The notes under the pieces: model-generated | Told to the model about the DNA's origin: nothing | The model's input: only the letters and a program-made list of their open reading frames with translations | Databases searched by the model: none | Shown here: positions 8,000-49,535 of the stretch, one piece after another | How positions within the stretch are numbered: position 1 is the first letter of the stretch | Layout of the letters: the number at the start of each line of letters is the position of its first letter | Assembly: GCA_946699065.1 (NCBI GenBank) | Contig: CAMPDV010001939.1 | Coordinates: 1 to 64,000 of the forward strand | Direction of reading: 5' to 3' | DNA: 64,000 nucleotides | Origin: Loxodes magnus | Taxonomy: Eukaryota > Ciliophora > Karyorelictea > Loxodida > Loxodidae | Program-made: the position numbers and the translations under genes

Positions 8000-10195
8000 A
8001 TTTTTCTCGATTTAATGTGCTTCGTTATATTTCCATATGATATCAGTGTAAAATATCTAAATATCCTCAATATAATCAATTTTCCTTTCTGTTTTTATGC
8101 TCTAATATACATCAAAATACTTCTTTTATTCTATTGATATATCAAAAGCTTTAAATATTTTCTCTTCGTAGATATTTCTCAAGAACTGGACCATGTGAAC
8201 TCCCTTATAAAACTCCGTTATTATAGAGTAAATTTCTAGAGAGGGTTCTATCTAAAATAAATCTAGCATCCAATTGCTTACAAAAAGATTCAAAGTTATT
8301 AAATAATGCAAAAGGAAGTTTAATTCTTCTTAAGTGATCAAAAAGTAATCGTCTGTCAATAGTGCCAAACATCTTTTCTACATCTATAAGAGTAGTAATA
8401 AGATGTTTTTTCTTTCCTCACCTTCTATGCAAATTTATAATTTGTTGCAAAGTTCATTATGAGGCATAGTTTAATTGCTTTTAAGAAATCCTTTTTTATG
8501 AGGGGTATATAATATTAATTTAATTAGCAAACTCATAAAGCCTCTAAGTTAATAATTTGTCGTAAATTTTTAGAATTATGTTAATAAGAGCTATAAATAG
8601 GGAGAATTCTTATCTACTTTAATTCATTAGGAATTCGTTATTCTCTTAATAAATTATTCATAAACTTTCAAAGAACAACATGGAACTCTTAATTTACATA
8701 TTTAATTAATTCTGCTTTAATACCATCTGCACCTGATGATTTATTATTTGCTAGTTTACTTATTATTACTTAAACCTCATAAAAACTAAAGAGATTTAAT
8801 CCTTGTAGATAAGACTCTTAATATTTTTTAACAAAATCACGATTTTAAAAAATATTGTTACTTTTTTTATTGCATGCTTTTAATTCTTCCTAATAAACGT
8901 TCTTATACTTATTGAAAACATTATTTTCTCAATTGTTTATAAAAAGAGAAAATTCTTCCGAATCTAAATACATATTGTTGCGCTTCTTTGGATTTAAAAT
9001 TTTCCTTGCATATTTAAGCATTTTAGGTGGAGTTTTGTTCATTTCTTCTCCATGATTTTTAGCTTATTTTATTTTGAATTACCAGTAATTTCTTTTATAT
9101 CTATTAAATTTTAGTTTTTTCTTAAGCTAATTTTATTACTATCTAATTTGATCTTCCTTATTATTCTAAGACCTATTAATAAGCTTTTTGTACTTATTTC
9201 GCAGCATTAAAACTTTAAATTAGGTTTGTTTGTAATCTATTAAAATTATTATTTAGGCGAACTTATCCTAAAATATTATTTTCATTATTTATTAGGATGT
9301 GCTTAATGTAATTATATTGTTCATCTACATCATTTTCATTTATCGATTCAAAATTTATTGAGCATCAATCCAATTAAGCTTTGTAATCAACTCTTACTTC
9401 TGAATTCTAGAGTTTATTAATCTTAAAATTAACTCTAGGAGCTAGTATAGGAATATTTCTGTTAATATTTTAGATATGTAAATTAAGTAATATTGGAAAA
9501 TTATCTGTATCAAGTCCACGGCATTATATAACTTTGAACTTAGAAATATAGTTAATGTTAATATGATAGTTGACTATAACATAATCATTGCAATATGCTT
9601 TATTATTAGCACGACTTCTAAAAGTATCCAAATTTTAATCTTCAATGAATTTTAGCAGTCTCTAAGCACTGTCCTAAGTGTTTTGTTAGTTATTGCTATC
9701 ATATCCATGTAAAAGAGCATTAAAATCACCCATTAGCATAAGTGCTTGATCTCTAACTTCTATAAGTATTAATCCTAGATTTGAATAGGATTAATCTTTT
9801 ATTGTTAAAGATTTTTCATCTGTTGCATATAACATGGAGCTAAATATATGTTATTTACTTTTATTAGTAGAAAACTATTATTTTATTAACCAAAATCCAA
9901 TTCTATTTATTTAGAATCAAGCTCTTCTTTAACAATAAAACAAACACCACCAGCTCTTTAAGTCTCTTCACAGTTTTTGAAATAAGTTCTATATCCATAA
10001 ATTTATATAGGAATAAAGTTTTAATGCTATCAAGTTTCATTAATAGAAAGTATATCAATTTCTTATCGTTTAGTAAATTATTCTATACTTAATTATTTTG
10101 TCTAAATTTAATTCATATTACAGTGCGCTAGTTTTAATTAGTTCAATTTGGCTCCACCTTTAAGACCTGGGTCATAGATGCAAAGGAACTTTTAA
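8000..10195 (-). pseudogene. LINE ORF2: endonuclease and reverse transcriptase
   Basis: The N-terminal part reads as an APE-type endonuclease: a start region KLAHCNMNQIQTKQ, then EIDILSINETW, RAGGVCFIV and the diagnostic LMGDFNALLHG (about 9,720). The RT part contains KSSGADGIKAELIK (about 8,730), the fingers motif LIDVEKMFGTIDRRLLFDHL (about 8,380) and LQGSSHGPVL (about 8,200). These correspond to RT blocks of L1-like elements. Where the YADD catalytic box is expected I read FYTDII, so the second Asp seems lost. Several frame changes separate the motifs, so this copy is unlikely to be active. TGA is Trp in INETW. Confidence 0.7.
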
Positions 10196-15715: not shown

Positions 15716-16732
15716 ATGTCCTAGATTGCTTAATGTCAATCTTGCAAAGGAATCTTCGACGGAAAGGAAAGGCTTCCCATGTTTTTGCCATGTTAGCATA
15801 ACATATGTGCAATCTGTACTTATAATTAATTTTTAAGCAGCAAAAGTATCGAATGTGCAAACTGTCAGCAAGTTCATATGATCCATCCTTCGAGATTGTA
15901 AGAAGACAGTTAGTTACTTAAGCATCTTGAGTAAAAGAGTGTCGTGGAAAGGGTAGCATTATTGGAGAATTAATCTTCGAAATTACGTTAAGCTTATGTT
16001 TTATTGACTAAGGTCTAATTTAATTTCATCTAGTAGTTAATCAAGCATGTAAGCAGTTATGTTTTTAAGGACAACATCGTCTTATAAAGGTAGTTGGTTT
16101 AGTGGGATAAGTAAATCTAACAGTAGTTAAGGTTCTTTAAAATCTAGAAATAGATGATGGATAAGAGCAATAACTAGTAGTAGTAGTATGATTATTAGGG
16201 TTTAGATATTTCTAAGTATGAGCCATAAGTAATGAAATTAGTAACTGATGCTTAAAGGATCATCTAGTAGAATATTTAGGCATCGGTTAAGGTTTATGAG
16301 GAGTTAGACAATTACAAGTTAAATCAAGTGTAAATACTTTAGGAAAATGGCCATTTGAAGAATGAGATATAAAATTTGAGTAACTAAGTCTATAATCTGT
16401 AATAGTAGTTATCTTCACAACAAGACTAGTTAAAATAACTGTTTTAAAAAACACCACACAAAGATCCTAAACCAATTTATTAACCTCAAAATATTCCTTA
16501 GTAGGCAATACTTTAGGATATCTAGATAACCATAGTATCGCCAAACAATAAGACATTATAGCTCTAGGTCAAATAAGAGACTACGATAAAGTAGATAAAA
16601 GAATAAATCTAAAATTAAACTTAGTTATACGCATATACTCTCAACATCTTAAAGAACAACAATAAACTGTAGGACACTTAAACTATATCGAGTTTATAAC
16701 TTGTCAATGGGGAAAGGCTTCAAATGAAGTGA
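15716..16732 (+). CDS. RING finger, coiled-coil, ubiquitin-like domain protein
   Basis: An intact 338-residue ORF from ATG 15716 to TGA 16730-16732. Residues 7-50 form a complete C3HC4 RING finger (C7, C10, C26, H28, C31, C34, C47, C50; CX2C-X15-CXHX2CX2C-X12-CX2C), the module that recruits E2 enzymes in ubiquitin ligases. Residues about 60-250 are Gln/Leu/Lys-rich and predicted coiled coil. Residues about 268-338 read as a ubiquitin-like fold (ITIVSPNNKTLQLQVKQ, TIKQIKEQI, LQDTQTISSLQLVNGERLQ). A RING with a C-terminal UBL on one chain suggests an E3-like factor that binds ubiquitin receptors or the proteasome (inference). UAA/UAG are Gln throughout. The first bases of the intron-like array lie 38 bp beyond the stop. 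Confidence 0.85.
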
Positions 16733-16770
16733 AGTAAGATTAATAGTTAAATGTTTAATTAAAGAAGAGG

Positions 16771-17407
16771 GTAAGTTATTTTATAAATAATTTAGGAGGT
16801 ATGACATATTTTAAAAATTTTATTTATAGGTAAGTTAGGCATTTAATATTCTTTAAAACTTATAGCAAGTAAGTTAAACATTTAATATTCTTTAAAACTT
16901 ATAGTATGTAAGCTAAGCATTTACTATTCTTTAAAACTTATAGAATGTAAGTTAAGCCTTTAATATTCTTTATAACTATAGGGGGTAAGTTAAACATTTA
17001 ATATTCTTTAAAACTTATAGTCTGTAAGTTAAACTTTAAATATTTTTTAAAACTATAGATGGTAAACATTTAATATTATTTAAAACTATAGAAGGTAAGT
17101 ACTTAATATTATTTAAAACTATAGGCTGTAAGTATTTATCATTCTTAAAACATATAGTTGGTAAGCTACTTTTTAAGTTTCCATTAAGATCGTAATTTTT
17201 TATTATATTGATAGTATGTAAGAGGTATTTATAGTTCTCTCTTTAGATGGTAACAACTATTTTTTATATTACCTTAATTAGAAGGTAATATTTAATAATT
17301 ATTATTGCTTATAGAATGTATGTGTATTTGTTAAAAGTATTAATAAGGGGGTAAGTTGCAATTTATTAGTGATATAGGACGTGAGAATCAATTTTACATA
17401 GTTATAG
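16771..17407 (+). repeat. array of tiny intron-like units with 3-bp spacers
   Basis: Sixteen or seventeen consecutive segments begin with GT (mostly GTAAG) and end with AG (mostly TATAG), and each pair is separated by exactly three bases. Segments run 16771-16795, 16799-16865 (possibly two fused units), 16869-16904, 16908-16943, 16947-16981, 16985-17020, 17024-17058, 17062-17091, 17095-17124, 17128-17157, 17161-17214, 17218-17246, 17250-17281, 17285-17314, 17318-17347, 17351-17377 and 17381-17401 or -17407. Units 3-7 (35-36 bp) and 8-10 (30 bp) are similar in sequence, but later ones are unrelated while keeping the GT...AG ends and 3-bp gap. The final segment is followed in phase by TGA at 17408-17410. 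Splicing is inferred, not shown. An ordinary 33-39-bp tandem repeat is the alternative for the first half only. Confidence 0.7.
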
Positions 17408-17579: not shown

Positions 17580-18522
17580 GATTAATATTAAGTTTGGCGA
17601 TCTTGGAGGAATTTCACCTCTTCCCGCCGATAACCGGATTGCTCCGGGATTAAGTCAAAAAGTTTAAAAACTTCTCCTCTCACATCCACTTGATCTTGTT
17701 ATCGCTAGTTCCATCTTCAGTTTCATGAAAGTTTCTTCTTATAAATAGTTCCAATTTCCGTCATTCATAGTCTTTCTTTTATTCTCCTCTGCTGCAATTG
17801 TCTAACCTTTCTTTTCTGTGTTTCTTTCTCTATTTTTCCCAGTATAGGTTCTTGAAGCTCAGGATTTCCTTGCATTTTCTTCAGAAGCATTGCTCCGAGT
17901 CGCAATAATAGCATCTTTTTACAACCTTGATTGGTTTGGTCTTCTTCAATTTCTTGTCAATTTCTTCAATCAACATAGCGTCGCCTTTCTGCTCATTTAG
18001 TTTCTCTTCTATTCTCTCAAGTCTGTTGTCCAATTAAGTCTGTTTTTAATGCTAATTCTGGGATTAGCTAGTTTAATCCTACGATATATTCCAGAAAACA
18101 CTCAGTTCTCGTTCTTAAGACATAAATCTTGACTCTATTCCTTGAGCTAGGTCAAGCTTTTCCATTAATTTTTCATTGTCTTTCTTGAGTTTCCTAACAT
18201 CTTCCTTGAGGTTTAGCACTACTCTGATGAGTTATTCCATGCTCATTTGGCCAGAAGGATTGAATTCCGTCACCTCCTGGTGGAGAGCAGACTTCATCTG
18301 CTTTCTCAGTTTCTAAGCTGAGATTGGAGTATCTATATGGGCTGTCTTCAATACTAGCTTCCACTCTTCTTGTTAAATTCCAGGTCGTTAGTTCAGTATG
18401 GATTAGGGTTAAGATAGAGGAGATTATTAAGTCTTGGTTTCCTGCTTCCTCCCTTTATTTTTGGCTTAGGAAGAGGTAGTATAGAAGCCTGATTTGAAAC
18501 CTTCCACGATTTTTTTTATAAG
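17580..18522 (-). mobile_element. gag-only retroposon, copy 2
   Basis: A 943-bp insertion flanked by a perfect 15-bp direct repeat, in minus orientation. It carries one gag-like ORF, has elevated G+C, and ends in a GC-rich imperfect hairpin near 17,594-17,634 (GGCGATC and AGG arms facing CCT and GCCGAT). Same size class and same 5' opening as copies 1 and 3. It separates the intron-like array from the T-rich tract at 18,538. Confidence 0.75.
17680..18507 (-). CDS. gag-like protein, zinc-knuckle type
   Basis: One frame of 275 codons from GTG 18507 to TGA 17680-17682. The expected ATG is ATC here, so initiation is doubtful. Residues about 100-130 form a coiled coil (MSMEQLIRVVLNLKEDVRKL), followed by a second helical segment (DNRLERIEEKLNEQKGD). 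A knuckle-like motif reads CYYCDSEQCFWRKC: CX2CX4CX4C, with Cys where His is normal. A basic tail follows. Gag-like nucleic-acid-binding structural protein is the best reading. The length agrees with copy 1 (about 290 codons). Loss of the start ATG and of the knuckle His suggests an inactive copy. Confidence 0.6.
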
Positions 18523-18537
18523 TATAATATGATTATA
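18523..18537 (+). repeat. target-site duplication, right copy (retroposon 2)
   Basis: Identical to 17565-17579. Confidence 0.7.
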
Positions 18538-19190
18538 TTTTAATTTAATTATCTTTTGAATATACTTTATTATTTTATTCTTTTTAGTTTGCTATTAGAA
18601 TATATAAGTTTCATAATTATGGTGTGTATGTATTTTATATTATGTTTTAAGTTTTAGTTTGGAATTAATGTATATAATAAAATTAATGCTATTTATTAGT
18701 AGTTTTATAGTAAAAAGTGATATTTAAAGTAAGTTTAGATTTTGTTTATTTATTCTATTTAAGAAAATAATATCTTGTATTTAAGGTTAAGTGTTATATT
18801 GTTATATTGCAATATATAGTTTAATAGATTTTATAGTTAAGATGGTTTTTAAAAAAATGTAATTAATTTAATCTAGGTAAGAGTAAATTTAAGATGTAAT
18901 ATTTGTGAGAGTATACTAAAATGTAATAAGTGTAAAATATTTAGTTTAGTTTAAGTTTTAGTATTTAAGTAAAAAGGATACTTTATTATTATTTTTGATT
19001 ATTTTATTAGGAAGTTATAATTATTGCTGATTCTTTTAATTTGTTCTGGTATTTAGTTTTGATATTCTTTTAGGTATAGTTTGATAAGTGTGGAGTTATT
19101 AATTAAAATAGTAAGTATTTTTTATGTTTCTAAATTATTTGAGTTAATTATTTTTATTTAAATTAGTTTATAATTATAGTATAGTAAAAG
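18538..19190 (+). other. T-rich non-coding tract with many TTTAG and TTTAAG ends
   Basis: This tract continues the sequence interrupted by retroposon 2. No protein-like frame is evident. It is rich in TTTAG/TTTAAG tetramers and a few GTAAG starts (for example near 18,877 CTAGGTAAG). It could be a decayed extension of the intron-like array at 16.8-17.4 kb, but the strict 3-bp spacing is not kept. Confidence 0.3.
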
Positions 19191-19202
19191 AGATTTAAAA
19201 GG
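19191..19202 (+). repeat. target-site duplication, left copy (retroposon 3)
   Basis: AGATTTAAAAGG, identical to 20092-20103. Only 12 bp and AT-rich, so less certain than the others. Confidence 0.5.
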
Positions 19203-20091
19203 TAAAAGATTTCTAAAAGATTAATTTAAGAGCAAAAAGGTTTAATAATAATAATAATATACTTAATTATAAAGTGTTTGTGGCTATGAGGTATTTCAGC
19301 CTCATTTCCACTGACATCTAGTGATCGCTCCTGGATGCTTAAAATAAAAATTTGGGTCATCCAGTTTTTTCGGAGTTCTGGAACTCGAATAGAAAATTCT
19401 TCTTCTGTATATTCTTCCTTCCATCGTCACGTAATTTTTGTTAATTCTTTTCAGACTTCTTCGCTGTTTCTTTTCATCTTTTCCTTGTATATCTTGCAAC
19501 TATTTAATCTATGGATTCTTGATTAACATAGGTAATATCTCTTGAAAATCCTTCTAATATTGGTCAGTTCTATTTGCCTATCGTCTTCTACTTCCATTTT
19601 TTATTTCTTAGATTAGAGGCTCTATTCTTTTTTGTCCAAGTTACTATACTTCGATTTCCTATTTGACTAATCTTTCTTCAGTATTTTAACTTTTTCTAAT
19701 AATTTTTTGTTTTCTTATCTTAATATTTTTACTTCTTCTTACAGAATATGTACTGATTTCAAAAGACTTTCAATTAATAATTATTCTTCATTTATCTATT
19801 TTTGCATTGTTTTTGGATTCTCTTATTTCCTATAGTTACTTGGTCTCAGTTTAGGAAGAAAGTAAATATTTTATTATTAGTTTTATTCTGTTTATGCTTA
19901 TTTAAGTTCTTATTTTATTTAAGATTTTCTTAAATTTTCAATTATTGGAGGTTATTAAGATTAAGAAGATTATTATTTTATTAAAGAAGCCGTGATGGAT
20001 GAAGAATTAGAAGTCTCTGGTTTTTGCTCCTTTATCTATGGAACCTGCAAAAAACCTCCTTGAGACCTTCTGCATTTTTTTACTAGTAAAA
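19203..20091 (-). mobile_element. gag-only retroposon, copy 3
   Basis: An 889-bp minus-strand unit between 12-bp direct repeats. Its ORF opens at ATG 20075 (MQKVSRRFFAGSI), homologous in position to copies 1 and 2. A coiled-coil core starts near 19,807 (MQKQINEEQLLIESLLKSV) in another frame, so there is a frameshift. A degenerate knuckle reads YYLCQSRIHRLNSC, with the first Cys replaced by Tyr. The 3' end carries an imperfect hairpin (GTGGCTATGAGG facing CCTCATTTCCAC, 19,279-19,316). Confidence 0.65.
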
Positions 20092-20103
20092 AGATTTAAA
20101 AGG
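20092..20103 (+). repeat. target-site duplication, right copy (retroposon 3)
   Basis: Identical to 19191-19202. Confidence 0.5.
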
Positions 20104-21694
20104 AAGCTTCTTGAAAATTATAAAATTAAAAAGTTAAAAAGGAAATTATTTAAATTATTAAAAATAAAAGAGTTAAAATAAAATTTTTTTATGAATAAAG
20201 GTACTGAAAGTGAAAAATGGTGAGAGGTAAGAAATAAAAAGAGAAAGAATATATTTTTGTTATTTTTGTTTAATTTTGTTTAATTTTGTATAATATTTTC
20301 TAAATAACTAAATTATTTTAAAATAAAATAAATTATTAAAACTATTTAATTTTTATTCCCCTAAGTTAAAAATTTTAATTTTTTTTTTTGCTCAGAGTTT
20401 TATACTATAGAAGATTTTTCGGACAGAACCAAAATTATAGAAATTTTGAATCAAGTTTTTAAGTCTAAAGTTATTCTTATTAAAGAAAATTATTTAAATT
20501 TTTTAGATAATGCATAATATAGAGAGGAATATTAAAAAATATTTTTTAATTAAATTTTTATTATTTCTCGGAGATTTACTACAGGAACTTTTAAAGATGG
20601 AAAAATATTTTAATAATTAAAAAATTAATTTGATTTTTCACTTTAAGCTTTTAATAAGAATATTTATTTAATAGACTGATACTATATAACATTTTTTTAT
20701 ATAATTTATTAATTTAGTGTTTTGCTATTTAATATAGACAAGGATGATAAATATTATAATAAGATAAATAAAAATAAATAAATATTTTAATGTATATTTA
20801 AGAATTCAAAATTGCTAAAATAATTAAAGCTCAGTAATATTTCCTTTCTTCGAAAAATAATTTAATAGCAAAAAAATTAAAATCTTTTAGGCTATATCTT
20901 AATCTTTATTCATACACCAATAAAAACTTATAAAATTTTATTTTTTTACAATGAAAGAAAAGATTTTTTTAACAAAAGATATGAAAAATTTTAATAAATA
21001 TATTTGCTCATACTGAAAAAAGCTAAAATAATTAAGCTATAAGCTAATTATTAGTAATGCATAGCTTTCATAACAATTATTTTTAAATCTAAGTTTAGTA
21101 CTTAATAGAATTAACTGTAGAATTTAAAATTAAATTATAGTTAACTTGAATATTTTTATTTTCAAACCAAACAATTTTAGAAGTTATTAAAAACAATTAA
21201 ATATTAATTAATAATACTATAAAAATAACTTTACAATCTATAAGACTAAAATTTTTAAATTTTGTTAATCTTTTAAAAATTAAAAAAATGTTTCGGAAAT
21301 TTAATCTAATAATATAATAAAAAATACTATTAATTTAAAATAAAATAAATGCTTATATATAATAAATAAATTTTTATAATTGTGATAACACTTTTTAAAA
21401 ACACAATAGAATATGTTAATTAAGCATCAGAATAAATCATTTTATAAGATGAATATACTAACTAAGAACGAAAAAAATGTGGCTAAAACTATAGAATAAT
21501 CTAACTACTCTGGATTTTAATTTAATTATTATTAAAGGAAGAATAAAAAGATAGAATTGTATTGCTTAAACTGATGAAGATACATATTATTTAAAATTTG
21601 AAGGTTTAATTACTAAATTGTTGTCCTTTAAAAAATTGTAAATTAAGCTAAGCATCAAGATAAAAGAATATAATAAATAAATAAATTTGATTAT
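20104..21694. other. AT-rich spacer with one dispersed motif
   Basis: No convincing coding frame. At 20,391-20,425, on the minus strand, lies a copy of a motif (CCGAAAAATCT then CTATAGTATAAAACTCTG) that recurs at 31.3-31.9 kb. Confidence 0.4.
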
Positions 21695-22999: not shown

Positions 23000-25620
23000 T
23001 TTTTCTATATATCATTTTAATTAATAAAATACGAAATAGTTTCTTTAACTAAAAGGATAATAAAAAGATTAGTCAAAATTCTTCTCTAAATATGAACTAA
23101 AAAATCTTAGAAAATAGTTTTGTATAAGAAGAATAAATATTTTATATTTATTCTATGTAAAGTTTAGATAATAATTAAACAATAAGAAGTAATAAAAAAG
23201 TTTATATTAGTAAATTTCTTATTAAATTCATAAATTAAATCTTTTAAGAGAAAATCTTTAATAATAATTAAATAAACCTAAAAGTATAAAAATTATAAAT
23301 TGTTTCACTTTAATAGCATATTTACTGTATAAAGTTTCCGATTTAATTCAGATACTTCAATTTATATAAATTTAAGTTTATTAATGTAAATTTCTTTTTC
23401 TCATTTGGCTTTTTACGTTTCTTGCTTTCATCATCACTCTCTTTTTATTCTACCTTCTGCTCTGTTTAATTTAATAAGCCTTTTCCAAATATTTAATTTA
23501 TTTTTAAAATAAATTTTTATGAAAAATTCTAATAAAGTTATAACATAAAGTGTGAAAAAAGTAAATAAAATAAACCTTTGAAGCAGTTTAGAGAAATTTA
23601 GATAATATTGATTTAAGATAAATATTTCAATCAGATTCTTTTTAATTTTCATTAGAATATTTAAAATTTAGTTTTAAAAGTTATATTTTCTTTATTAAAC
23701 ATTCTAAAGATAATTTAAAACTACGATTTAAACATTAAAAAATACTTCAATTTTAATAAAATTTAGATTATTTTTTGCATTTTCAAAAGAATATATTAGA
23801 AGTGTTATTATTGGAAAAATTTAAGCTGCTAGCAAATAATAAATAAAACAAAACTAATGAAGGAAATAAAAGTAAAGATATGTTAAAAGGAAATATTTAG
23901 AATGACATAAATAATTTAATAATTGAACAATAAAAAAAATCATTATTAGTTAAATAATAAGAAAGAAAAAGATTAAAATTATAAAAATTACTAATATTTA
24001 AAACAAGTTTAGTTGAAACCATATTTTATTAAGGAAGAAAAAATACGAAAAATTAAAATAAAAGATAAGAAAAATAATATTTTTAATTTTGTTGAATAAA
24101 AGCTTAAAATATCATTTTATATATAAAATGTATTAGTATTTTATAAGAAACCCAACTAAGTGTTGGAAAAAATAATAAAATATAACTAGAGAAAATTTAA
24201 TAAAATTTATTGTTTTAAATGATATTTTAAATAAATATTTAAAATATTTTAATTAAATGTTTAGATAAAGCATATAAAAATTATGTAATCTAGAATTTAA
24301 CTTTAAAAATATGTTAAGGATAACTAAAGTTAAATAAAAAAATAAATGGAAAACTTAAAAAAAATAGATTTTTTCATAAAAAATGATTATAAAAACTACT
24401 TATAATTTAATTGAGACTATCAGTTTCTAAAAAATTATTTAAAAATCTTACTAAAAAAATCATAAAATGTAAATTAATAAATAATCAAAATATTAAAAAA
24501 ATTATAATTTTAAATTATTAATATACAAAATAAATTATATTAATAAAAAATAAATCCCTTCTTATTTTTAGTTAAAATATATTCCTTTCTATTAAAAATA
24601 ATATAAAAACTTATTTTTTTAAACATTTTAGACAAAATTAATTATACAATTCTCTTTTATAATTAATTAAAAACTCTATTAAGCTGATAAATTTAGCTTA
24701 TACTTTTATCAAAGAAATATTCTTTCTAATTATATTATAGCAAGTTTGTTCATTTATTATATTTTCAAATATATATAAAAATTAAAAAAATAAATTAGAC
24801 TAACTTTTTAAAGTTTTGCATTATAAGAAATTTATTTTATATATAATAAATGTAAATGATAAATGATATAGTAAATAAAGAAATTAATAATAAATTTTAA
24901 TTTATAAAGATCATTAATGAACTCTTTACACCTATTATACAAATATTTAATTTCTTATTATATTTTAAATAATATATTTTTATACTTTATATCTTTATAA
25001 AATAGTTTTAATTAATTTTTCATAAACTTTTAGCTTAGCAAAATTTTTATAAGTTAAATAATATTTATATTTAAAATTTTAAAATTTTTTAATTCTAAAA
25101 TTATCAAAAATGTACTAAAATCATCATATTATTTTAAGCTACAATAAGAAATAGAAGAAAGTATTAAATTATGCTAGAATCGCATTTAAAAAATATGATT
25201 ATACTTATTAAATATATTAAACAATTAAAAAAATTATTTAATTTTTAAACATTTTAAGCATAGTAAAGCTTTAAATAATTTTAAATTATATATAGAAATA
25301 AATAATACTATTTTAATAAAAATTATAAATCAAATAGTTAAATTAAATTTATTTGGTTCTTTCAAATTTTATTTTGGATTATTTTTATTGCTTGTTATTT
25401 TTATTTTTTATGCTTATTTATTTATAGCTTTTATTATTAGATTCTAAATATTTTTAATAGTATAATTTATTATTTAGTATTTATTTATTTCAATATGTTT
25501 GTTTTCGTTATTATTTTATGAATAAATTATGACATTTTTAGTGTTTTACTTATTCTTTTATATTAAATATTATATTATAATTGTTAAATTCTTATCATAA
25601 TAACTTATTTATTATTTATA
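23000..25620. other. very AT-rich intergenic tract
   Basis: About 2.6 kb made mostly of A/T runs, with no protein-like composition on either strand and no RNA gene seen. A short minus-strand ORF near 23,434-23,652 is judged fortuitous. Confidence 0.45.
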
Positions 25621-28230: not shown

Positions 28231-28450
28231 CTATACTTTTATAATTAATTAAATATTATTATTATTGAGTTTTAATTCATACATTAAATTATAGTTCTTT
28301 ATATGTTTAGTATATTGATAAATAAAAGAAGTTTTAAGCATTAACTGATGCTTAGTGCTAAAATAAAAGTAGCAAGTTTAATAGTTTAAGATATTATTTA
28401 AAATCTAATTTTTAATTAATAAAATAATAATTAAAATATTCATAAACATC

Positions 28451-31007
28451 AAATGTAAAGCTTGTAACGGAGATTTTGATGAGTAGGTGAAGGTTCCTAT
28501 GATACTTGAATGTGGTCACTAAATGTGTTACGATGTATTCATAACTAGTTCTTAAAGTCTAAATAAATCTAATGTATGGGTAATAACTGCAAAATTCATA
28601 CTAAAACTCACCCAACTTAACTATAAAGTGATAAGCTGATGTTAGATACTACCAAGCAAAGCTTTATATAATCTAATATAGTATAGTTAAAATCATTAGA
28701 GAATAGAGTAAGTTAAGAGTTATAGAAGATAAAAAAGATAAAGCTGGCTATAGTAAATAAACTTCTAGAGGACCTCGAAATTAATTTATTTACAGATAGT
28801 ACTAAAATATATGAAGAACTATAAAGTCACTAAGTAACAACAAAAAAGGAGATAAATAACTTACTGGAGTTATAAGGCTAATTGAAATAAAATAAATGAC
28901 ATGATGTTTCAAATTTAGAATATACCTAACTAATTTAAATAGTTTAAAATTAAATATTAAAAGCTTAGCAGGCCTATAGTGTTTTAATTAACTACGACTA
29001 AAATTATTTTTAATTAAGCAATAACTTTAAATGTAAGATATAAGATTACCGTAGATAGATAGAATAGCATAAAGAGTTTATTAAGCATTTAATTAGTTAG
29101 ATATAACTATTATCAAGTTAGTTAATGAAATTTTAAAATATATAAATCTGAGAAAGAGACTGATTAAAGTAGATGAATCAAGAATTCTATCAAGAATATT
29201 TATAAAAATCAGAAGTAAGTTTAATATAAATTTCAGAGGCAATGGAAAAACTCTTAAGAGCCTTAAATTTAATGTATTTATTTTAAAATATTTATATAGA
29301 AAACAAAGCAGCAAATAATTAATAGAAAGCTATTAATTAATTTAATGAAATTCAAGATTAAGGTATATTTTTATACACAGCTAAAATAATGTAGGGACAT
29401 ACAAAAACTATATTATCTGTAACTATATCTAGAGACCAGAAATGAATTGTTTCTGTAAGCGATGATAATACGATAAAAATATGGGACTTTAATAGTGCCT
29501 AATTAAAGAGTACTTTGTAGGGACATACAGGTTTTGTTTTAACTGCATCTATTTCGAGTGACTGCAATTATATAATATCTGGAAGTGATGACAATACTAT
29601 AAAGATATGGGATTTAGTGTCTGGTTAGTTAAAGAGTACTTTATATGGACATAATAGTTCTGTTTACTCAGTAGTTCTAACAAATGACCAGAAGTGAATC
29701 GTTTCTGGTAGTTATGATAACACGATCAAAATTTGGGATTTCAAAACTAATTAATTAAAAAGTTCCTTGTAGGGGCATACGAGTCAAGTTTTATCTGTAG
29801 CAATTTCAAGTGACAACAACTATATTATATCTACAAGTATAGATAATACAATAAAGATATGAAATTTACAAGCTAACTAATTAAAGAGTACACTGAAGGG
29901 ACATACATAATCTGTAAATTCTGTAGTAATATCAAGTGACCAGAGATGAATCGTTTCTGGAAGTTCTGATAAGATGATTAAGATATGCAATTTTTAGACT
30001 GGATAGTGTATAAGAACAATAACAGGCATTAAGGTTGAATAGGAGGAGTTACATTGACAAGCAACAACAGTTTTATAGTATCAGGAAGTGGAGATAAAAC
30101 AATAAAGATATGGGATTTCTAAACAGGAGAATGTGTATATACGTTAATGGGGCATACAGCTGAAGTAAGGAGTGTAGCACTAAGTAGTGATGACAAGTGA
30201 ATAATATCAGGTAGTTGGAATAAAAATGTGAGAAAGTGAAATATTTAAAGAAAGTATGAAAAAAGCATATTGAACAAGTAAGTAAAGGTAAGATATTTTA
30301 GTACAGATATAAAAGAGAATATCTATTGAAGGAAGAGAAATTTAGAAGGAGAGTAGATGAGAAAAAAATAGAATTTTAAGACAAAAAACGATAAATTCAA
30401 AAATTTAAATAAATTAAGGATATATATACAAAGCTATTTAATTATAAAAAGAGGAATTATGGAATCGATGAAAGAATAATTAAGTTTCTAACTATAAAAA
30501 TTAGAAAAAGAAGCATTTAATTTAATAATTTAAATTTATAAATTTGATAAATATTAAAATGAGAATCAAAGAACCTTTATATAATTAATGGAAAGGAAGG
30601 ATACATCTTAAAAAGAGAAAATTATCAAATAATTTTTAATGGAGAGTTGAAATTATAAAAAGAGAGTAGTAAAGCCTTATTTAAAAGGGCATAATTTGAT
30701 TCATTAAAATAAAGAGTTTTATTTAAAATCAAAATATGGAAAATAATGTTAAAAATTTATTTATTACTTAAAAAATATATAAAGAGCAGTAGCTAGAATT
30801 AAAAAGGAAAAGCTATTAAATAATTAAAAGATATTAAAATTGTTGTCATTAAATTTGAATTCAGCTGCGCAAAACGAGTAAATAAATAAGGAGGAAATTT
30901 TAAGATAAATTTTTTAGAAGATATTATATAAGGAAAACGTTTAAGTAAATAAAAAGATTTAGTTAAATTATTTACTGGTATACAAAACTGAAAATAAAGA
31001 AAAATGA
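28451..31007 (+). CDS. RING, coiled-coil and seven-bladed WD40 protein (two frameshifts)
   Basis: The RING finger starts at Cys 28454 (KCKACNGDFDEQVKVPM, ECGHQMCYD) with the same CX2C-X15-CXHX2C spacing as the 15,716 gene. The next expected Cys appears only in the -1 frame from 28,534. A coiled coil of about 200 residues follows, then seven WD40 repeats from 29,392 to about 30,250 (for example SDDKWIISGSWNKNVRKW, with TGA as Trp). A second -1 shift at about 30,027 is needed to read GHQGWIGGVTL. A Lys-rich helical tail runs to TGA 31005-31007. The layout resembles TRIM-like E3 ligases in which WD40 binds substrate. No ATG is visible in the RING frame. Both shifts equal one missing base and may be errors, decay or frameshifting. 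Confidence 0.7.
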
Positions 31008-37664: not shown

Positions 37665-39345
37665 AATGTAGAAAGAGTGGATAGATTTTACTTATAATTA
37701 AAAATTTACGTGCTATAATTATTATGCCCCTATTCCCAAATGGTCTAACTCAACCGATACTTGCTTAATTTACTATTATAGTCATACTATAATAACCGCT
37801 TACTAAATTCCTACTCGTTATTGTATAGTAGGTTTAGTGTACACAACACCTTTTTAACTTCATTTTTCTCCATGTTGGTAGATTTATCTGAATCGAATAT
37901 ATAGACATGTTCTAGTTGTGATTCGTTATATCAAAACAAATAGTTGCTAGCTTAATAGAAGTAAGCTGAAGTGATTAGAGATGGTAATGATAATTTATTA
38001 TGTAGCTGGCGTATGAATTTTCTACTGGATTTAACATTTAACAAGAATTCACGTACTTATGTGTTTGAATAACTCAAATGTTAGTGTCTGTTAAGAGTTG
38101 CAAAGTAGAATAAATTTATTTATTTATTTATTTATCCTAAATAACCTTAAAGTACCTTTTAGGGTATTTAATACTTAACACTCTTTAATAGACTTCTAAC
38201 TTTCATTAAATCCCTGCCCTGAGATAATGCAAATCCGATGCTAAAATCGAGGATTGCTCAACGATAACCGTTTAATTCTTCTGTTGCATTTACCGAATGC
38301 TATCTTCAGAAAAAGTATAAATCTTCTTCCATTCACTCTTCCACCTGAAATAACTAAGGTATTTTTCATCTATTCAAATTAGATGTAGTTCGATTAAGCT
38401 TTAGAAATTTCAATAAGCTTTGAGAAAGCTTTTGTCTCTGAGTTGAAATTTATTACTAAATTAGAGTAATGCTTGGTTGTATAATGCTTGAAGATCCTAA
38501 TTTAATGTCTTTTTCTATTCCTATACTATCTTGTATCAAACGCGTTCTTCAAATGATTTTTTATCTATTAAATATTCTACTCAAAAATCTTCACTTCATA
38601 TTTTTCCAGTAAATTGATATTCTTAGTTTATTTTTCCTTCATTAAATGTAGTTTAGACTCTATAAGAGCTATTTTAAATCCAACTAAATTAACTTTTCCA
38701 TTTCATTGTTCATATAATTAAAAATTAAATCTGATTTGCCACTTCATACTCATAGAATTAGATATCAAACTATTTTTCTTTCCAGTTTTAAATGAAAATA
38801 ATGATTCAGTTAATCCTCCATCGACTTATATAAGGAAAGTATTTATTATTCTTCAGTCTTTGCTCATTTATCTAATTTCTTTAACCTACATATCAATCAA
38901 CGCTTTTCACTTCTATATCTACCTCTGTTTATCTTTCATTTTGCTTTCTTATATTTAATTCAAAGATCCTAGATATCTCTTATAGTATTTTCTCTATGCT
39001 TTTATAAGTAATAAGCGAATACTGGGCACATTTACTCTTAGTCTTCTTAGAAGTATATCAATTTATAGCATTCTTTATATACGAGACATTCAATCTAGTT
39101 AGCAATTGTTTGCTGTTCAATCTTCTCTCTCAGGGAGTTGCTAAAATGTAGAATTTAGCATCATAGACTCTACTTTAGTAATTTCACTACAAATGCCATA
39201 CTTAGCCACCTTAGCACTATATTTGAATTACTCATTCGAGCAGACGAGACAAATTATATCCTTGTAGTTAAAGGATATAGGTAATTTAAATTTGGAACCG
39301 AAATAAAGTTAACATTACAATCATTAGTAGTTTTATTCCCATTTT
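37665..39345 (-). pseudogene. RING/B-box-like kelch gene, copy C
   Basis: On the minus strand a Cys-rich N-terminus (ICLVCSNEQFKYSAKV) precedes a degenerate B-box-like segment (ECLVYKECYKLIYFQEDQEQ, KHRENTIRDI). A coiled-coil region leads to kelch blades related to genes A and B (TLVISGGRVNGRRF, then CIISGQGFNES, then VYIFDSDKSTNMEKNEVKK). Segments lie in different frames. One shift coincides with an expanded TTTA microsatellite at 38,110-38,134, and another falls between the RING and B-box parts. Copy D has different small indels, so the two decay independently. The 3' end coincides with the duplication edge. TRIM-like E3 scaffold ancestry is inferred. Confidence 0.5.
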
Positions 39346-39829
39346 AAGATAATAGTGACAGCAAATTTAATACATAAGATAGATACTATTTACTAGCTTA
39401 GGTTGGTTTCAGTTTGATTTACTTAAAAGAAATAAATAAAATAGAGGTAAGAATACCAGTTATGTGTAGGTGGAATGGAAAAATGAAAATGAAAATGCTT
39501 CTTAAGCGGATAAAAATAAAATTAGCTAAGAGGAGTTAGTTGAGTACATCTGAACTATAATATTTTCCCTTGCTAGAAAAAATGCACAAGAAGACACTCT
39601 AAGTGTTTGTATTTAAATATTATTACTCTGATTTACTTGTCAAAGCCTTTGATATTAAACTTTTCTTAAGCTTAAAATAAGTTTGAATTAAACTATCTTC
39701 AGTTAAATATTAATAATATTCTTGATACTAGGCTATATTGGAAAACCTTAAATGAATTTAAAGATTAGCAAATCTTAAAAGTCTGCATGATGATTTAAAA
39801 TAGATTGGTTATTACAGAATCAAATATCA

Positions 39830-40814
39830 TCACAATATTTTTTTAAAGGCTTATGTTATTATAGCCTTGGTAAATTTTAAAGCTTTTCCATTTTTGCAAA
39901 TTATCTTTTATCAGAACAATTTAAGCCATAATCCTAAAATCTTGTCTTTAAGTAAGTTGGATATCTCATCATTGTCTTAAAATAACTAAATATTTGCTTA
40001 TAATGTATGCTAATTAACATTTTGACTTCTTTTTATATTTTTATCTTTAAAAGCAAATGAGGAGATATTTTTTAATTGTATATCTAAATGGCATGACTTT
40101 TTATAACTTTAGCTTACTGAAATTTACTTTGAGATATTTAACTCCTTCCTACTTAATTCTAATGTTGCATAGAAATTATATAAAATTGATTGCTATAATG
40201 TCTCTTTTTCATTACTTAGCAAGGTCTCTTTTCAACAGGCTCTCTTTATTACTTAAATTGTCCTTTGAGTTTATAAATATATCCTTAGTTATTGTCTCCA
40301 AATTTTTCTTTAATCCTTCTTACTCTTATAAAGTAGTTTCTTTTCTTCTGTTGCTTTATGTTTTATTTCTAATCTGTTAATTTATTTTCTTTTTTCATAT
40401 TTATGAAATGCTTGATAGAACTTTAATAAAAGCATATAATGGGCTTCAATATAGAATTATTTTTATTGTTAAGTAACCAGAATAATAAAATTAAAATTTT
40501 ATTTTAAAGATATAAATCTTTCGGTTTATGTTTCTTCTATACACATTCTTTAAAACTTTTAAGTATATTAGACTATTTAGCATTGGATCTCTTTTTTTTC
40601 TTTACATTAAATATAAATTTTTTATTCTTTATGTTATTGAATTTAGTTGATAGATTGGTTCTTTAAAGCTTGGTATGTATTTCAAATAGCTTTTATTCTC
40701 ATTCTGCAAGAAATTTCTTGATAATTTCTTCTTATTTACTAAATTTCCTATTAATTTTTTTAAGTGTTTTATCTCTTCCTGCAAGTTAAGCACTATCTCA
40801 ATAAGCTATTCCAT
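39830..40814 (-). CDS. gag-like coiled-coil protein in block A
   Basis: From ATG 40814 the protein starts MEQLIEIVLNLQEEIKHLKK, closely similar to the coiled-coil core of gag copy 2. Further on, a helical stretch (EGLKKNLETITKDIFINSKD) and a C-terminal part (DNDEISNLLKDKILGLWLKL) run to a double TGA at 39827-39832. Start and end are not in the same frame, and the 985-nt span is identical in length in block B. The frame change therefore predates the duplication and could be an intron or an old deletion. No zinc knuckle is visible. Probably a domesticated or decayed retroposon ORF. Confidence 0.4.
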
Positions 40815-41287
40815 ATTAAATTATTTAGTCGTTAAGAATTAAAAAAACTCTTAATAAGATTGATTTTATTTACTTCTAGGGTTTTTCTTAAAAGTAGGAA
40901 TATCCAATTAATTAGAAATTTCCCTATTTGACTATTCAATAAACTAAAATTTTTAGGATTTTCGCTTTTATTTTAATTAGCTTAGAATTTTATAGCTTGT
41001 AGCGTTTATTTAATATAGATATAAGATAAATAAAAATATGATTAATAATTAGTAATTAATTAATAAAGCTTAAATAACTATATTACTTTATTATCTTCAA
41101 AATTAACTTTCTTAGAAGCAAATAATCCTTAAAATCTAATTATAACTATTAAAGCTTAAAACATCCTCAAAGTATCTATTTAGTAAGTATGATAAATTAA
41201 TAATCTTAATTATGTAGATTATAGTGCTTTAATACCATACTATTATATTAATATTACTATTTTTATTTATTCCTTTATAAACAAAAG

Positions 41288-41359
41288 TGCGCTATCCGGG
41301 ACTCGAACCCGGGTCAACTGCTTGGAAGGCAGTTATCCTAACCACTAGACTAATAGCGC
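41288..41359 (-). tRNA. tRNA-Gly (TCC), copy A
   Basis: A 72-nt intronless cloverleaf. The acceptor GCGCTAT pairs with ATAGCGC, followed by discriminator A. The D arm is AGTCTAGTGGTTAGGAT, the anticodon stem-loop CTGCCTTCCAAGCAG gives TCC, and the T arm is GGGTTCGAGTCCC. Identical in block B. Confidence 0.97.
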
Positions 41360-42004
41360 CCTAATAAGCAATAAATCAAAAGCTTTTAAACCAAATTAAG
41401 GGATAATTAATAAGGAAATTTAAAGTATAGTTAATTAGCAGTTTATAATGAATATGCTTATATACATAATAATAGCAAAAAATAGTAATTAATAAATCAT
41501 TTAATCAAAGTTAAACTTTCAGAGATTCCTGCAAAATCTATTTTTAAATTACAAAATTGAATAATTTTACTTATAGAGTCTTATTTAAGACTTAAACTAA
41601 TCCTTTAACTATATAATCAAAATTTATTTCTTAGTTTCTAGTAAATTAACTGATTTTAACAATTAAAGTGTTTTCGATGTTTTAGCAAACTTCAGTTAGA
41701 TCTAATTATTCAACAGCCCAAAATTTAATAAAATAGTTATTTAAAAAGCTCCTAAATATGCTTCATAAAGTAGCTAAAAATTTAAATCATATTTTAATAT
41801 TGAAATAGAAGTCATCTCACATATCTGTAAACTAAGATGAACTTGATTATCATTTTAATCTGACCCTAATATAAGATTTTAATATTAATTTAGATTGTTT
41901 GATGCTTATATCAATAATATCTTATGAATGAATGAAGCTTATTATAAAGGTAATAAAAATATAAAATTTAATAATAGGAATTAAAGTTAAAATATTTTTA
42001 GTCT
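41360..42004. other. AT-rich spacer in block A
   Basis: No gene or motif recognised; the same sequence lies at 49,608-50,251. Confidence 0.4.
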
Positions 42005-44662
42005 TCAACTCTTCTTCTTTTATAACTCTGATGCACTCTATTTTATGTTATCAACTTCTGTCATTGATCTATGACTTATATCTGCATAACTAGGATTTCA
42101 TTTCTATTTTATTTGCTCTAACTAACTTATAAAAGTATCTATGTCTGGTCTTATTTTCTCGTCGAAAGCTAAACATCTGTAGAATAAATCAGTTAATAAG
42201 GATTCTTGTTATATTTCGCTTGAAAACATAGGAATCATTTTATCGATATAAACTATTTACTTTAACTAAGAATCTTAAACTGGATATAGAAATCCTTCAT
42301 TTAATATTTCTACTCCTATACAACCTAAAGATCAGATATCACTTTTTTTACTCACTCTCTTTTCAAATTATTCAGGAGCCATTCATTGATGTTCACCTTT
42401 TTGTTCTATTGCTCTTAATCAGTTATCTTAATTAAATAATCCAAAAGTTAGTATTTTAGGACAATCTTAATTATCTAACAGAATATTAAGAGATTTTATT
42501 TCTTTATGAATTAAGTTTCTATTGTGAATAGCCTATAAGCCTTCTGCTATTTAACTAAGTAAGTTAAGCTTCTTATAGAATCTAGAATGGCAGTTTTTGA
42601 ATAACTACTTTGTCTAAATAATTTAGAATAAGCTTCCTTTATTCTAAAAATCAGTTAAAAGAGCTATTTCTTAAGTATCGATAGCAAATCCTATAAGTTT
42701 TTAAACACTTTAGCTATTTATTAAAATTAGTTCTTTACATTCAAATCAGAACTAATCTATTATTTTTTCGTTCTACTAGTTAAATACTTTAAAGCAAAGC
42801 ATGCTTCCTTAGATACTAGCCAGATAAGTCGTTCCGAACTCATCACAAGCCAATTTCTATAATTCCTATAGAAATTAATTGTTAGGAACTAAATCACTAT
42901 ATTTCCATATTCTTACCTCACAATTACTATCTATTTACTATAAGAATTTCCTTATTTATTCTTCTGTTATTATATTCTTTAATTAACTTACTTCTTTTGT
43001 AACTTTTGTTTAGGGAATTTCTAAATTTGGATTAAGTTGTTTTGCTTTACTGAGGCATTCAAGTGCTTCTTGATTCTTTTTTAAAGTTTGAAGACAAAGA
43101 TCTTTATCATAATGAACTTATGCATAATTAGGATCAAGTTAAATAGCTGTGTCGAAACATTTGATGGCTTCGAGATAATTTCCTAATTTATAAAGAGATA
43201 ATCCTTTATTTCGGAAGTAAACTGGAGAGGTAGGATCGAGTTTGATGGCTTAATTAAAGCTATGAATTGCTTCTTTGTATTTCTCTAACAAATGTAGAGT
43301 AAGTCCTTTATTGTAATGAGCAGTTACTAAATTAGAATCGAGTTTTAGAGCAATATTTAAGTTTTAGATTGCTTCATCGTATTTACCTAATCAAATCAAT
43401 GCAATTCCTTTATTAGCATGAGCAGCTATTAAATTAGGATTTAATTTGAGAGCGATATCGTAACTTTAGATTGCTTCACTGTATTTCTCTAATTCTTTCA
43501 GTGCTATTCCTTTATTGCAATAAGTAGATTCATTATTAGGATCTAGTTTTAAAGCGATATCTAAGCTTTAAATTGCTTCAATGTTTCTTCCTAATCGTAT
43601 CAATGCAATTCCTTTATTAGCATAAACAGCTGCATTATTAGGGTCTATATTTAGAGCTATATCAAAACTTTAAATTGCTTCATTGTATTTTCCTTATTCT
43701 ACCAGCGTAAATCCTTTATTAGCATGTACAGCTGCTAAATTGGGATTTAGTTTTAGAGCGACATCTAAGCTTTAAATTGCTTCGTTGTATTTACCTAATT
43801 CTTTCAGTGCTATTCCTTTATTACCATGAGTTGCTGCTTCATTAAGATTTAGTTATAGAGCGATATCAAAACTTTTAATTGCTTCGATGTTTCTACCTAA
43901 TCTATTCAATGCAATTCCTTTATTACCATGAGTTGCTGCATCATTAGGGTTTAGCTTTAGAGCTTTATCTAAGCTTTAAATTGCTTCGTTGTATTTACCT
44001 AATCTATTCAATGCAATTCCTTTATTACTATGAGTAGCTGCATTTTTAGGATCTAAATTTAAAGCGACATCTAAACTTTAAATCGCTTCAATGTTTCTTC
44101 CTAATCGTATCAATGCAATTCCTTTATTACCATGAACAGCTACATTATTAGGGTTTAGTTTTAGAGCTTTATCTAAGCTTTAAATTGCTTCGTTGTATTT
44201 ACCTAATTATTTCAGGGCTATTCCTTTATTACTATGAGCAACTTCTAAATTAGGATTTAATATTAGAGCTTTATCGTAGCTCTAGATTGCTTCGTTGTAT
44301 TTACCTAATTCTTTCAGTGCATTTCCCTTATTAGCGTGAACATCTGCTAAATTAGGATTTAATTTTAGGGATTTATCGTAGCTCTAGATTGCTTCGTTGT
44401 ATTTACCTAATTCTTTCAGAATAATTCCTTTATTACTATGAATTGCTGCATCATTAGGATCCAATTTTAAAGCGATTTCTATACTTTAAATTGCTTCGAA
44501 GTTTCTACCTAATCGACTCAATGCCATTCCTTTATTACTATGAGCAGCTAAATGATTAGAATCTAATATTATTGCTATATCTAAATACTCGATAGCTTTC
44601 TGATAATTTGCTTTGTTGATAAGTTAAATTGCTTATTTGATATATTACTAAGGTTGAGACAT
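42005..44662 (-). CDS. TPR-pseudokinase fusion, copy A
   Basis: An intact 885-residue frame from ATG 44662 (MSQPQQYIKQAIQLINKANY) to TGA 42005-42007. About 17 TPR units (for example KLDPNDAAIHSNKGI, GRNFEAIQS) fill the first two thirds. A kinase-like domain follows: ATP-site Lys in CFKVFNQQ, then the catalytic loop IHKEIKSLNILLD in place of HRD, the metal motif ILTFGLF in place of DFG, then QWMAPEQF and SDIWSLGCIGVEI with TGA as Trp, and RPDIDTF. Loss of both catalytic and metal Asp predicts no phosphotransfer, so the domain is probably a scaffold or allosteric module. TPRs likely bind a partner peptide. The paralogue at 57,141-61,418 keeps all catalytic residues. Confidence 0.85.
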
Positions 44663-45289
44663 TTTATAAATGTTAATAATAGTTTAGTAATAATAAAAGC
44701 TTTTTATAGTTATTAATACACTTATTTTAGCTTTTAATGCTTTTAGTTTATAACTTTTATTTATTTTTGCTTCTTAATTTAAAGTTATTTAATTACTTTT
44801 CTTTCGTTTTATTACTAAGCTAGTTTTAATAATATTTATAGGATTAAATATTCCTTATTTTATATACTAATAAATAGTTTTAATAGTAGTAATTTAGAAT
44901 GTGTGTTTAACAATAAATATCATTGATTAATTACATCAATATTAAGCATTATGAATTATCAACATTTTTATATTTATATTTAATAAATCAAAACGATTGT
45001 AAAAAGTAAGTTGTCTATTATTGTTAAAAATAGACATAAAAACTAATATTATTCCATTAATCTTGCTACTCTAAATATAAAATTAAGTCTAATAAATAGA
45101 AACTTTAATAGACTCATCCTTATCTATTTTAAGTATTTATAGTTGTTATTTTTTATTTAAATATCCTTATTTATTGGTTTCTAACTACCAACATTTATAA
45201 ATAAAGTAGTGGAACATACTCACGTTAAAAAAATATTCGCAGGAACTAGATGAAATTGCTGGTAATCCAATAATTTTCTAGCTTTAAGT
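44663..45289. other. spacer with block-A-specific insertion
   Basis: AT-rich. About 44,820-45,040 has no counterpart in block B, while 45,043-45,180 does (52,882-53,020). No gene seen. Confidence 0.4.
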
Positions 45290-45857: not shown

Positions 45858-47575
45858 AATGTAGAAAGAGTGGATAGATTTTACTTATAATTAAAAATTT
45901 ACGTGCTATAATTATTATGCCCCTATTCCCAAATGGTCTAACTCAACCGATACTTGCTTAATTTACTATTATAGTCATACTATAATAACCGCTTACTAAA
46001 TTCCTACTCGTTATTGTATAGTAGGTTTAGTGTACACAACACCTTTTTAACTTCATTTTTCTCCATGTTGGTAGATTTATCTGAATCGAATATATAGACA
46101 TGTTCTATTTGTGATTCGTTATTTCAAAACAATAGTTGTTAGCTTACTAGAAGTAAGCTGAAGTGATTAGAGATGGTAATGATAATTTATTATGTAACTG
46201 ACGTATGATTTTTCTACTGGATTTAACATTTAACAAGAATTCACATACTTATGTGTTTCTGAATAACTCAAATGCTAGTGTCTCTTAAGAGTTGTAAAGT
46301 AGAATAAATTTATTTATTTATTCTAAATAACCTTAAAGTACCTTTTAGGGTATTTAATACTTAACACTCTTTAATAGACTTCTAACTTTCATTATATCCC
46401 TGTCCTGAGATAATGAAAGTCCGATGCTAAAATCGAGGATTGCTCAACGATAACCGTTTAATTCTTCTGTTACATTTACTGAATGCTATCTTCAGAAAAA
46501 GTATAAATCTTCTTTCATTCACTCCTCCACCTGAAATAACTAAGATATTTTTCATCTATTCAAATTAGATGTAGTTCGATTAAGCTTTAGAAATTTCAAT
46601 AAGCTTTGAGAAAGCTTTTGTCTCTGAGTTGAAATTTATTACTAAATTAGAGTAATGCTTGATTGTATAATGCTTGAAGATCAGAAAAAGAGTGTGAAGA
46701 TCAGTTTAGTAATTGTATCAAATACTAGAAGTTAAATAAGATTTCTAAGAAAAGCTAACTTAATGTCTTTTCCTATTCCTATACTATCTTGCATCAATTG
46801 CGTTCTTCAAATGATTTTTTATCTATTAAATATTCTACTTTAAAAATTTTCACTTCATATTTGTCCATTACATTGATATTATAGTTATTTTCCCTTCATT
46901 AAATGTAATTTAGACTCTATAAGAGCTATTTTAAATCCAACTAAATTAACTTTTCCATTTCATTGTTCATATAATTAAAAATTAATTCTGATTTGCCACT
47001 TCCTACTCATAGAATTAGATATCAAACTATTTTTTCTTTCCAGTTTTAAATGAAAATAATGATTCAGTTAATTCCTCCATCGACGTATATATAGGAAAGA
47101 TTTTATAATTCTTCAGTCTTTGCTCATTTATCTAATTTCTTTAACCTTCATATTAATCAACAATTTCCACTTCTATATCTACCTCTGTTTATCCTTCATT
47201 TTGCTTTCTTATATTTAATTAAAAGCATCATAGATATCTCTTATAGTATTTTCTCTATGCTTTTATAAGTAATAAGCGAATACTATGCATATTTACTCTT
47301 AGTCTTCTTAGAAGTATAGCAATTTATAGTATTCTTTATATACGAGACATTCAATCTAGTTAGCAATTGTCTGCTGTTCAATCTTCTCTCTCAGGGAGTT
47401 GGTAAAATATAGTCTTTAACATCATAGACTCTACTTTAGTAACTTCACTACAAATATAACCACTTTAGCACTATATTTGAATCACTCAATCGAGTAGTTG
47501 AGACAAATCATATCCTTGTAGTTAAAGGATATAGGTAATTTAAATTTGGAACCAAAATTAAGTTAACATTACAAT
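45858..47575 (-). pseudogene. RING/B-box-like kelch gene, copy D
   Basis: The copy of 37,665-39,345 in block B. Here the RING-like and B-box-like parts are in one frame (MICLNYSIEWFKYSAKVVIF through CLVYKEYYKLLYFQEDQEQ and KHRENTIRDIYDAF), unlike copy C. Other frames break further downstream, for example near 46,126 where one A present in copy C is missing. Two of the putative zinc ligands of copy C are Tyr or Ile here. Probably non-functional, or affected by sequencing indels. Confidence 0.45.
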
Positions 47576-49063: not shown

Positions 49064-49535
49064 ATTAAATTATTTAGTCGTTAAGAATTAAAAAACTCTT
49101 AATAAGATTGATTTTATTTACTTCTGGGGTTTTTCTTAAAAGTAGGAATATCCAATTATTTAGAAATTTCCCTATTTGACTATTCAATAAACTAAAATTT
49201 TTAGGATTTTCGCTTTTATTTTAATTAGCTTAGAATTTTATAGCTTGTAGCGTTTATTTAATATAGATATAAGATAAATAAAAATATGATTAATAATTAG
49301 TAATTAATTAATAAAGCTTAAATAACTATATTACTTTATTATCTTCAAAATTAACTTTCTTAGAAGCAAATAATCCTTAAAATCTAATTATAACTATTAA
49401 AGCTTAAAACATCCTCAAAGTATCTATTTAGTAAGTATGATAAATTAATAATCTTAATTATGTAGATTATAGTGCTTTAATACCATACTATTATATTAAT
49501 ATTACTATTTTTATTTATTCCTTTATAAACAAAAG

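Follow-up and report, generated by a model that had tools for sequence, protein, structure and literature searches.

Positions 16771–17401 (or 17407; + strand) of the window (the whole 64-kb stretch of DNA that was analysed) carry a genuine and highly unusual sequence feature, an array of 17 GT...AG segments of 21–67 nt with 16 triplets in between. This array probably represents ~17 very short spliceosomal introns that split a coding tail of ~50 nt into single-codon exons. The spacing, the splice consensus at segment ends, the exon-like composition of the triplets and the ending of similarity at GT and AG are plain in the sequence; a spliced array is most likely what they reflect, and it would most likely be an extreme form of micro-exon gene, with the intron-copying signature as its most interesting part. 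The main features are:

15716–16732, + strand: intact intronless ORF of 338 aa (translation with TAA/TAG as Q; Pfam)
16733–16770, + strand: 38-nt spacer from the RING ORF to the first array donor (sequence)
16771–16795, + strand: candidate intron 1, 25 nt, GTAAGT...TTTAG (sequence)
16796–16798, + strand: candidate single-codon exon GAG (sequence)
16799–16865, + strand: candidate intron 2, 67 nt, with a putative zero-length exon or lost triplet inside (AG/GT joint)
16866–17160, + strand: tandem part, CAA TAT AAT GGG TCT ATG AAG GCT TTG with eight related segments (36, 36, 35, 36, 35, 30, 30 and 30 nt)
17161–17377, + strand: six segments (54, 29, 32, 30, 30 and 27 nt) with no detectable kinship to the tandem unit, separated by TAT (17215), ATG (17247), AAG (17282), AAT (17315) and GGG (17348)
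17378–17380, + strand: last candidate single-codon exon, GAC (sequence)
17381–17407, + strand: final candidate intron, ending at 17401 (21 nt) or at 17407 (27 nt); the alternative is coding sequence, from GAC through to a TGA

The first-pass annotation had described about 16 intron-like segments with gaps of three bases; the count is 17 segments and 16 triplets, and the spacing is exact. All 16 triplets that it named are in place (GAG, 16796; CAA, 16866; TAT, 16905; AAT, 16944; GGG, 16982; TCT, 17021; ATG, 17059; AAG, 17092; GCT, 17125; TTG, 17158; TAT, 17215; ATG, 17247; AAG, 17282; AAT, 17315; GGG, 17348; GAC, 17378), each with AG directly before it and GT directly after. In order, the segments measure 25, 67, 36, 36, 35, 36, 35, 30, 30, 30, 54, 29, 32, 30, 30, 27 and 21 (or 27) nt. 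Upstream of the array, AG-AGG-GT extends the run by one step, with AGG (16768–16770) as a candidate for a 17th triplet. The 67-nt segment consists of a 31-nt piece (16799–16829) followed by the first 36-nt repeat unit (16830–16865), the two meeting as AG/GT without a triplet. Besides AGG, the 38-nt spacer contains an ATG (16751–16753) in the RING frame, and by inspection candidate introns of 18 nt (16729–16746) or 34 nt (16734–16767) lie in or near it.

Chance does not explain the array. With segments of 15–75 nt, the longest AG-N3-GT chain in the 64-kb window reaches 18 on the + strand, compared with 3 on the other; the chain of 18 uses TAA (16870) instead of CAA (16866) plus an extra ATC (17189), and the run described earlier together with AGG gives 17. 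The longest chain was 2–6 in 60 second-order Markov windows and at most 5 when the local 4.5 kb was simulated 300 times. Spacers of 0–2 and 4–15 nt likewise gave longest chains of 2–6 on either strand, so that a spacer of 3 alone stands out. Elsewhere in the window the chance of a further step is 0.091 (211/2323) for bare GT/AG and 0.017 (12/698) for GT[AG][AT] with [TA]AG, a stricter consensus picked after the array had been seen. For the six steps from TTG (17158) to GAC (17378) this gives odds of ~6e-7 (bare) and 3e-11 (strict), assuming independent steps. By the bare measure a six-step run might arise by chance about once per 700-Mb genome, as estimated from window frequencies, but hardly as the same-spacing continuation of a repeat array. 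For longer runs that also keep a strong consensus, the expected number is close to nil.

A scan with a three-donor pattern returned 29 stretches in viral contigs and at least 119 in genome contigs; 148 loci were used, and the chain count was run on all of them (one locus, L061, was examined in full, the others by triplets and lengths for the top 15). Bacterial loci among these 148 preselected stretches reach chains of 23, 15 and 14 (L084, L055 and L061, the last a cyanobacterial contig with a simple repeat), and run length alone is therefore weak evidence. The 148 loci are a caution about run length, not relatives of the array, and the array motif itself had no matches in the viral contigs. 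The array is set apart, as read from its sequence, by a run that continues through unlike segments, by variation among its triplets and by its splice consensus.

Donor and acceptor consensus is found at every segment boundary, with GTA in 16 of the 17 donors (GTAAG in 11) and TAG in 16 of the 17 acceptors. Triplet G+C content is 39.6%, against 14.8% in segment interiors, and when 16 interior triplets were drawn at random, only 4 of 100,000 sets matched it; the signal is weaker for the seven triplets from TTG onward taken alone (2,110/100,000 draws as GC-rich). For comparison, the G+C content of Loxodes magnus is given as 33.5% for coding sequence and 18.6% for 3′ UTRs (excerpts of PMC11441545). 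G directly precedes the donor in 9/17 cases in a window with 12% G (binomial, 5e-5). In length the segments run contrary to the Loxodes magnus profile, where the mode is 17 nt and 93% of introns are ≤25 nt in a survey that ranges only to 40 nt (PMC11441545): just two array segments are ≤25 nt and 15/17 exceed it. The relative depletion of 3n-introns reported for Loxodes (PMC11441545) is not seen in the array either, where 11/17 segments have 3n lengths; since 13/17 also lack TGA, retention might go unnoticed. The other window genes examined (TPR-kinase genes and one WD40 gene) have at most one clear intron. In the latter region (28450–30300, + strand), a RING-like start is followed by WD40-like repeats, and a frame change near 28560 would, by inspection, fit a 23-nt intron (GTATTC...AAAG), nearer to Loxodes lengths than the array is.

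The first-pass annotation had read the first eight or so segments as a related 39- or 33-bp tandem; Tandem Repeats Finder sees a 39-bp array at 16830–17133. Across the five long units, similarity averages 88% over the first 28 nt and 23% over the triplets, with no 3-column window within the 28 nt below 57%. A looser alignment of all eight units gives 77% for segments and 25% for triplets, and its lowest 3-column window (46%) lies where gapped ends are out of register. Segments 16869–16904 and 16985–17020 are identical over 36 nt, and are flanked by CAA/TAT and GGG/TCT, respectively. Tandem segment length drops from 35–36 to 30 nt with the spacer constant at 3, and similarity among tandem segments ends exactly at GT and AG. 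As segments are alike, triplets unlike and identical segments differently flanked, copying appears to have halted at splice boundaries; with plain tandem duplication, the triplets would have been carried along. Two accounts are left, copying of introns as units or triplet change driven by very strong selection. The triplets either side of each segment differ as wholes, leaving no 3-bp duplication outside GT...AG. No convincing second copy of an array segment was found elsewhere in the window (best BLASTN hit E=0.001, 25262–25316, very AT-rich).

From 17161 on, the seven remaining segments had been called unrelated, and no relation is detectable: for none is the best alignment to the eight early segments rare among shuffles (139, 134, 440, 40, 305, 441 and 474 of 500 shuffles equalled the best interior alignment). 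A weak BLASTN match between 17290–17357 and 16919–16991 (68%, E=0.14) is not significant. If the late segments are old copies, GT/AG and the spacer have outlasted the rest, which points to splice-site selection. Among the 16 triplets (16796–17380) two codon pairs recur, ATG AAG and AAT GGG, with two copies of each; this was noticed post hoc, has a frequency of 0.004 in column shuffles and 0.010 in order shuffles, and is a lead only. The segments inside the repeated pairs align no better than shuffles (1836/2000 and 1343/2000 reach the score).

Long frames in the window are open only when TAA and TAG are both sense codons, and the two occupy the same repeat position; they were translated as Q by convention, and the homologue tally does not point to Q in particular. 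In one kinase gene an in-frame TGA falls in the motif before APE, where aligned homologue residues are W in 93 of 129, Y in 34 and F in 2, and a second copy of the kinase has TGA at the same position. Every W vote comes from this single site: for the gene's six remaining TGAs there are few aligned residues, with no W among those listed and F and Y leading at two. Of 2061 hits from a homologue search with the kinase, the 120 listed come from many different groups. More in-frame TGAs occur in both copies of the duplicated kinase and in TPR repeats. Under table 27, the karyorelict code, TGA serves as the sole stop, defined by nearness to the poly-A tail. The sequence fits a ciliate host reading TGA as tryptophan, matching this code, which has been described for Loxodes (PMC11441545).

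TPR-repeat protein kinases with in-frame TGA are located on the - strand at 57116–60689, 42390–44923 and 50600–52709, with W clearly expected at one site; the kinase copy at 51.5–52.5 kb shows frame changes without an intron (pseudogene or assembly error). A segmental duplication of ~6.7 kb (37665–44310 and 45858–52570; 92.5–96% identical) contains tRNA-Gly and a TPR-kinase gene. At 9368–9835 (- strand) there is a weak LINE-like endonuclease/reverse-transcriptase match (Exo_endo_phos_2, E=0.003, below the Pfam cut-off), and 17600–20692 (- strand) holds two adjacent long open frames, partly GC-richer and with no Pfam matches, possibly mobile-element ORFs.

The 338-aa ORF upstream of the array has a RING-like start, followed by a Q-rich middle (a coiled coil only as judged by inspection) and, at the C terminus, a ubiquitin/SUMO-like domain (Rad60-SLD; Pfam E=5.7e-06, above cut-off; ubiquitin, E=3e-4, and RING, E=0.002, are both below theirs). 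No homologue of it was found at E≤0.001 among 662 candidates, nor any in viral contigs. It appears complete without an array tail, the ubiquitin-like domain being nearly complete, and ends at TGA 16730–16732 (stop, or W), with the array donor 38 nt on. Should this TGA be a stop, a 3′ UTR of Loxodes length (median 41 nt; PMC11441545) would finish near the start of the array; if it is W, or if the 18 nt at 16729–16746 are spliced out, the gene would enter the array in its own frame.

Joined conceptually, the triplets read EQYNGSMKALYMKNGD in phase 0 and GAIQWVYEGFVYEEWG when shifted by one; the RING frame gives GSNIMGLwRLCIwRMG (w = TGA). In that order, the three frames have mean codon log-likelihoods of -4.16, -4.00 and -4.63, against a median of -4.34 and a 95th percentile of -4.03 in shuffles; codon usage thus slightly favours the shifted frame and decides for none. 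The RING frame is the only one with a nearby start (by inspection), yet has two TGAs near its end, and coding TGAs are depleted near gene ends in Loxodes (PMC11441545). Pfam returned no matches for four conceptual array peptides. A resemblance of the phase-0 peptide (...ALYMKNGD...) to the end of the ubiquitin-like domain was dropped, as BLASTP gave no alignment and Pfam nothing. Coding on the minus strand was also rejected: open frames are present there, but the 38- and 39-bp units break any repeat frame (ORF list and inspection).

If the array is spliced, it would share a transcript with the RING/ubiquitin-like gene or be transcribed directly after it. Every intron would be recognised as a unit (intron definition), and the introns would be removed in turn because simultaneous occupancy of all sites at a spacing of 3 nt is not possible, so that the triplets would end up joined in the mRNA. 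Since all exons are exactly 3 nt, any skip would preserve the frame. In part of the array, introns may have been copied into adjacent codon boundaries or have overwritten adjacent introns, presumably by reverse splicing or by conversion bounded by exons, and not by plain tandem duplication. A fuller version of this reading, in which introns that copied themselves into successive codon boundaries leave one at every codon of the tail, all ~17 are spliced out and skippable codons provide combinatorial single-residue variation, is put forward tentatively and is itself rather doubtful.

Several other explanations share part of this evidence. The array might be a minisatellite whose 39-/33-bp unit merely contains GTAAG...TATAG, with a chance continuation and no splicing; Tandem Repeats Finder does report a 39-bp array at 16830–17133, and bacterial repeats produce AG-N3-GT runs just as long. 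We regard this as unlikely, since the triplet is the unconserved part of the unit (23% against 88%), two units are identical except for their triplets, six more steps lie in sequence without detectable relation and the triplets are GC-rich. Splicing of non-coding triplets, in the 3′ UTR of the RING gene or in a non-coding transcript, with a role in nuclear retention, decay or intron-derived RNA, would suit a RING ORF that stops, with its ubiquitin-like domain nearly complete, at a TGA 38 nt upstream, the lack of a clearly coding frame and the fact that 3n segments are not avoided. A constant 3-nt spacer has no reason outside a reading frame, however, triplet G+C content resembles that of coding sequence and Loxodes 3′ UTRs are short (median 41 nt; PMC11441545), which makes a non-coding array improbable.

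It is very unlikely that 16771–17401 forms one long intron, removed whole or stepwise, with its internal sites transient (recursive splicing) or alternative. True recursive splice sites are known with a zero spacer. The triplet-less AG/GT at 16829/16830 has this classical form, and loss of all 48 nt of triplets would preserve the frame, but the spacer is 3 nt at 16 junctions and zero at only this one, and GC-rich triplets would then be unexpected. Short germline-limited DNA insertions (IES-like) in place of introns can be given hardly any credence: in their favour are a ciliate host and the short insertions reported from Loxodes, many with terminal direct repeats (PMC11441545), but the flanking triplets of a segment differ, hence there is no 3-bp terminal repeat, and the segment ends fit the splice consensus.

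Selection for splicing with 3-nt exons, as proposed in the first-pass annotation, is thus the best-supported reading on the sequence and a putative one at the RNA level. To the evidence listed there can be added triplet G+C content, G before the donor, identical introns between different triplets, the unique 3-nt spacer and a host with TGA as W. The accompanying statement that there is no established class of such genes is too strong, as many small symmetrical exons make up the micro-exon genes of schistosomes and the bicycle genes of aphids.

In Schistosoma micro-exon genes (MEGs) the coding region consists mostly of very small symmetrical exons, exon choice alters the protein by a few residues, and a VAL gene has a MEG-like portion (PMC4350168). 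The array has 16–17 candidate 3-nt exons between GT...AG segments, which on the sequence look like consecutive very small symmetrical exons; if spliced, any of them could be skipped with the frame preserved, as in MEGs (PMC4350168). It differs in that its internal exons would all be one codon, its introns would be 21–67 nt and it has no known protein. Aphid bicycle genes have ~17 exons on average, with internal exons nearly all of one phase, and a gene related to them has >100 micro-exons (PMC9168663). The array differs from these putative effectors in lineage and in having candidate exons of one codon each. Known bicycle-gene exons are longer than one codon.

Isolated 3-nt and 1-nt exons can be spliced (PMC4674806), whereas the array has 16–17 consecutively. 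Introners and proliferating stwintrons place near-identical introns at several sites, and stwintrons integrate seamlessly without flanking duplications (PMC9860276, PMC8469720); array copies lie instead 3 nt apart at one place. The short GT-AG introns of karyorelicts and heterotrichs resemble the array in type and in belonging to ciliates with TGA as W, but their mode in Loxodes magnus is 17 nt, against mostly 29–36 nt here (PMC11441545). Consecutive exons all exactly one codon long did not turn up among the papers listed by a search of open-licence PMC papers, and the excerpts of PMC3274533 (Tetrahymena RNA-seq) and PMC5014332 (ciliate introns) hold nothing bearing on one-codon exon runs.

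Genes of this kind would probably escape ordinary gene finders and read aligners. If spliced, the array would be an extreme case of spliceosomal intron definition, with donor and acceptor repeatedly 3 nt apart and almost no exon sequence between them. Introns that are identical although their flanking codons differ would then record recent intron gain at codon spacing, and would open the mechanism of intron copying, whether reverse splicing or conversion, to direct testing.
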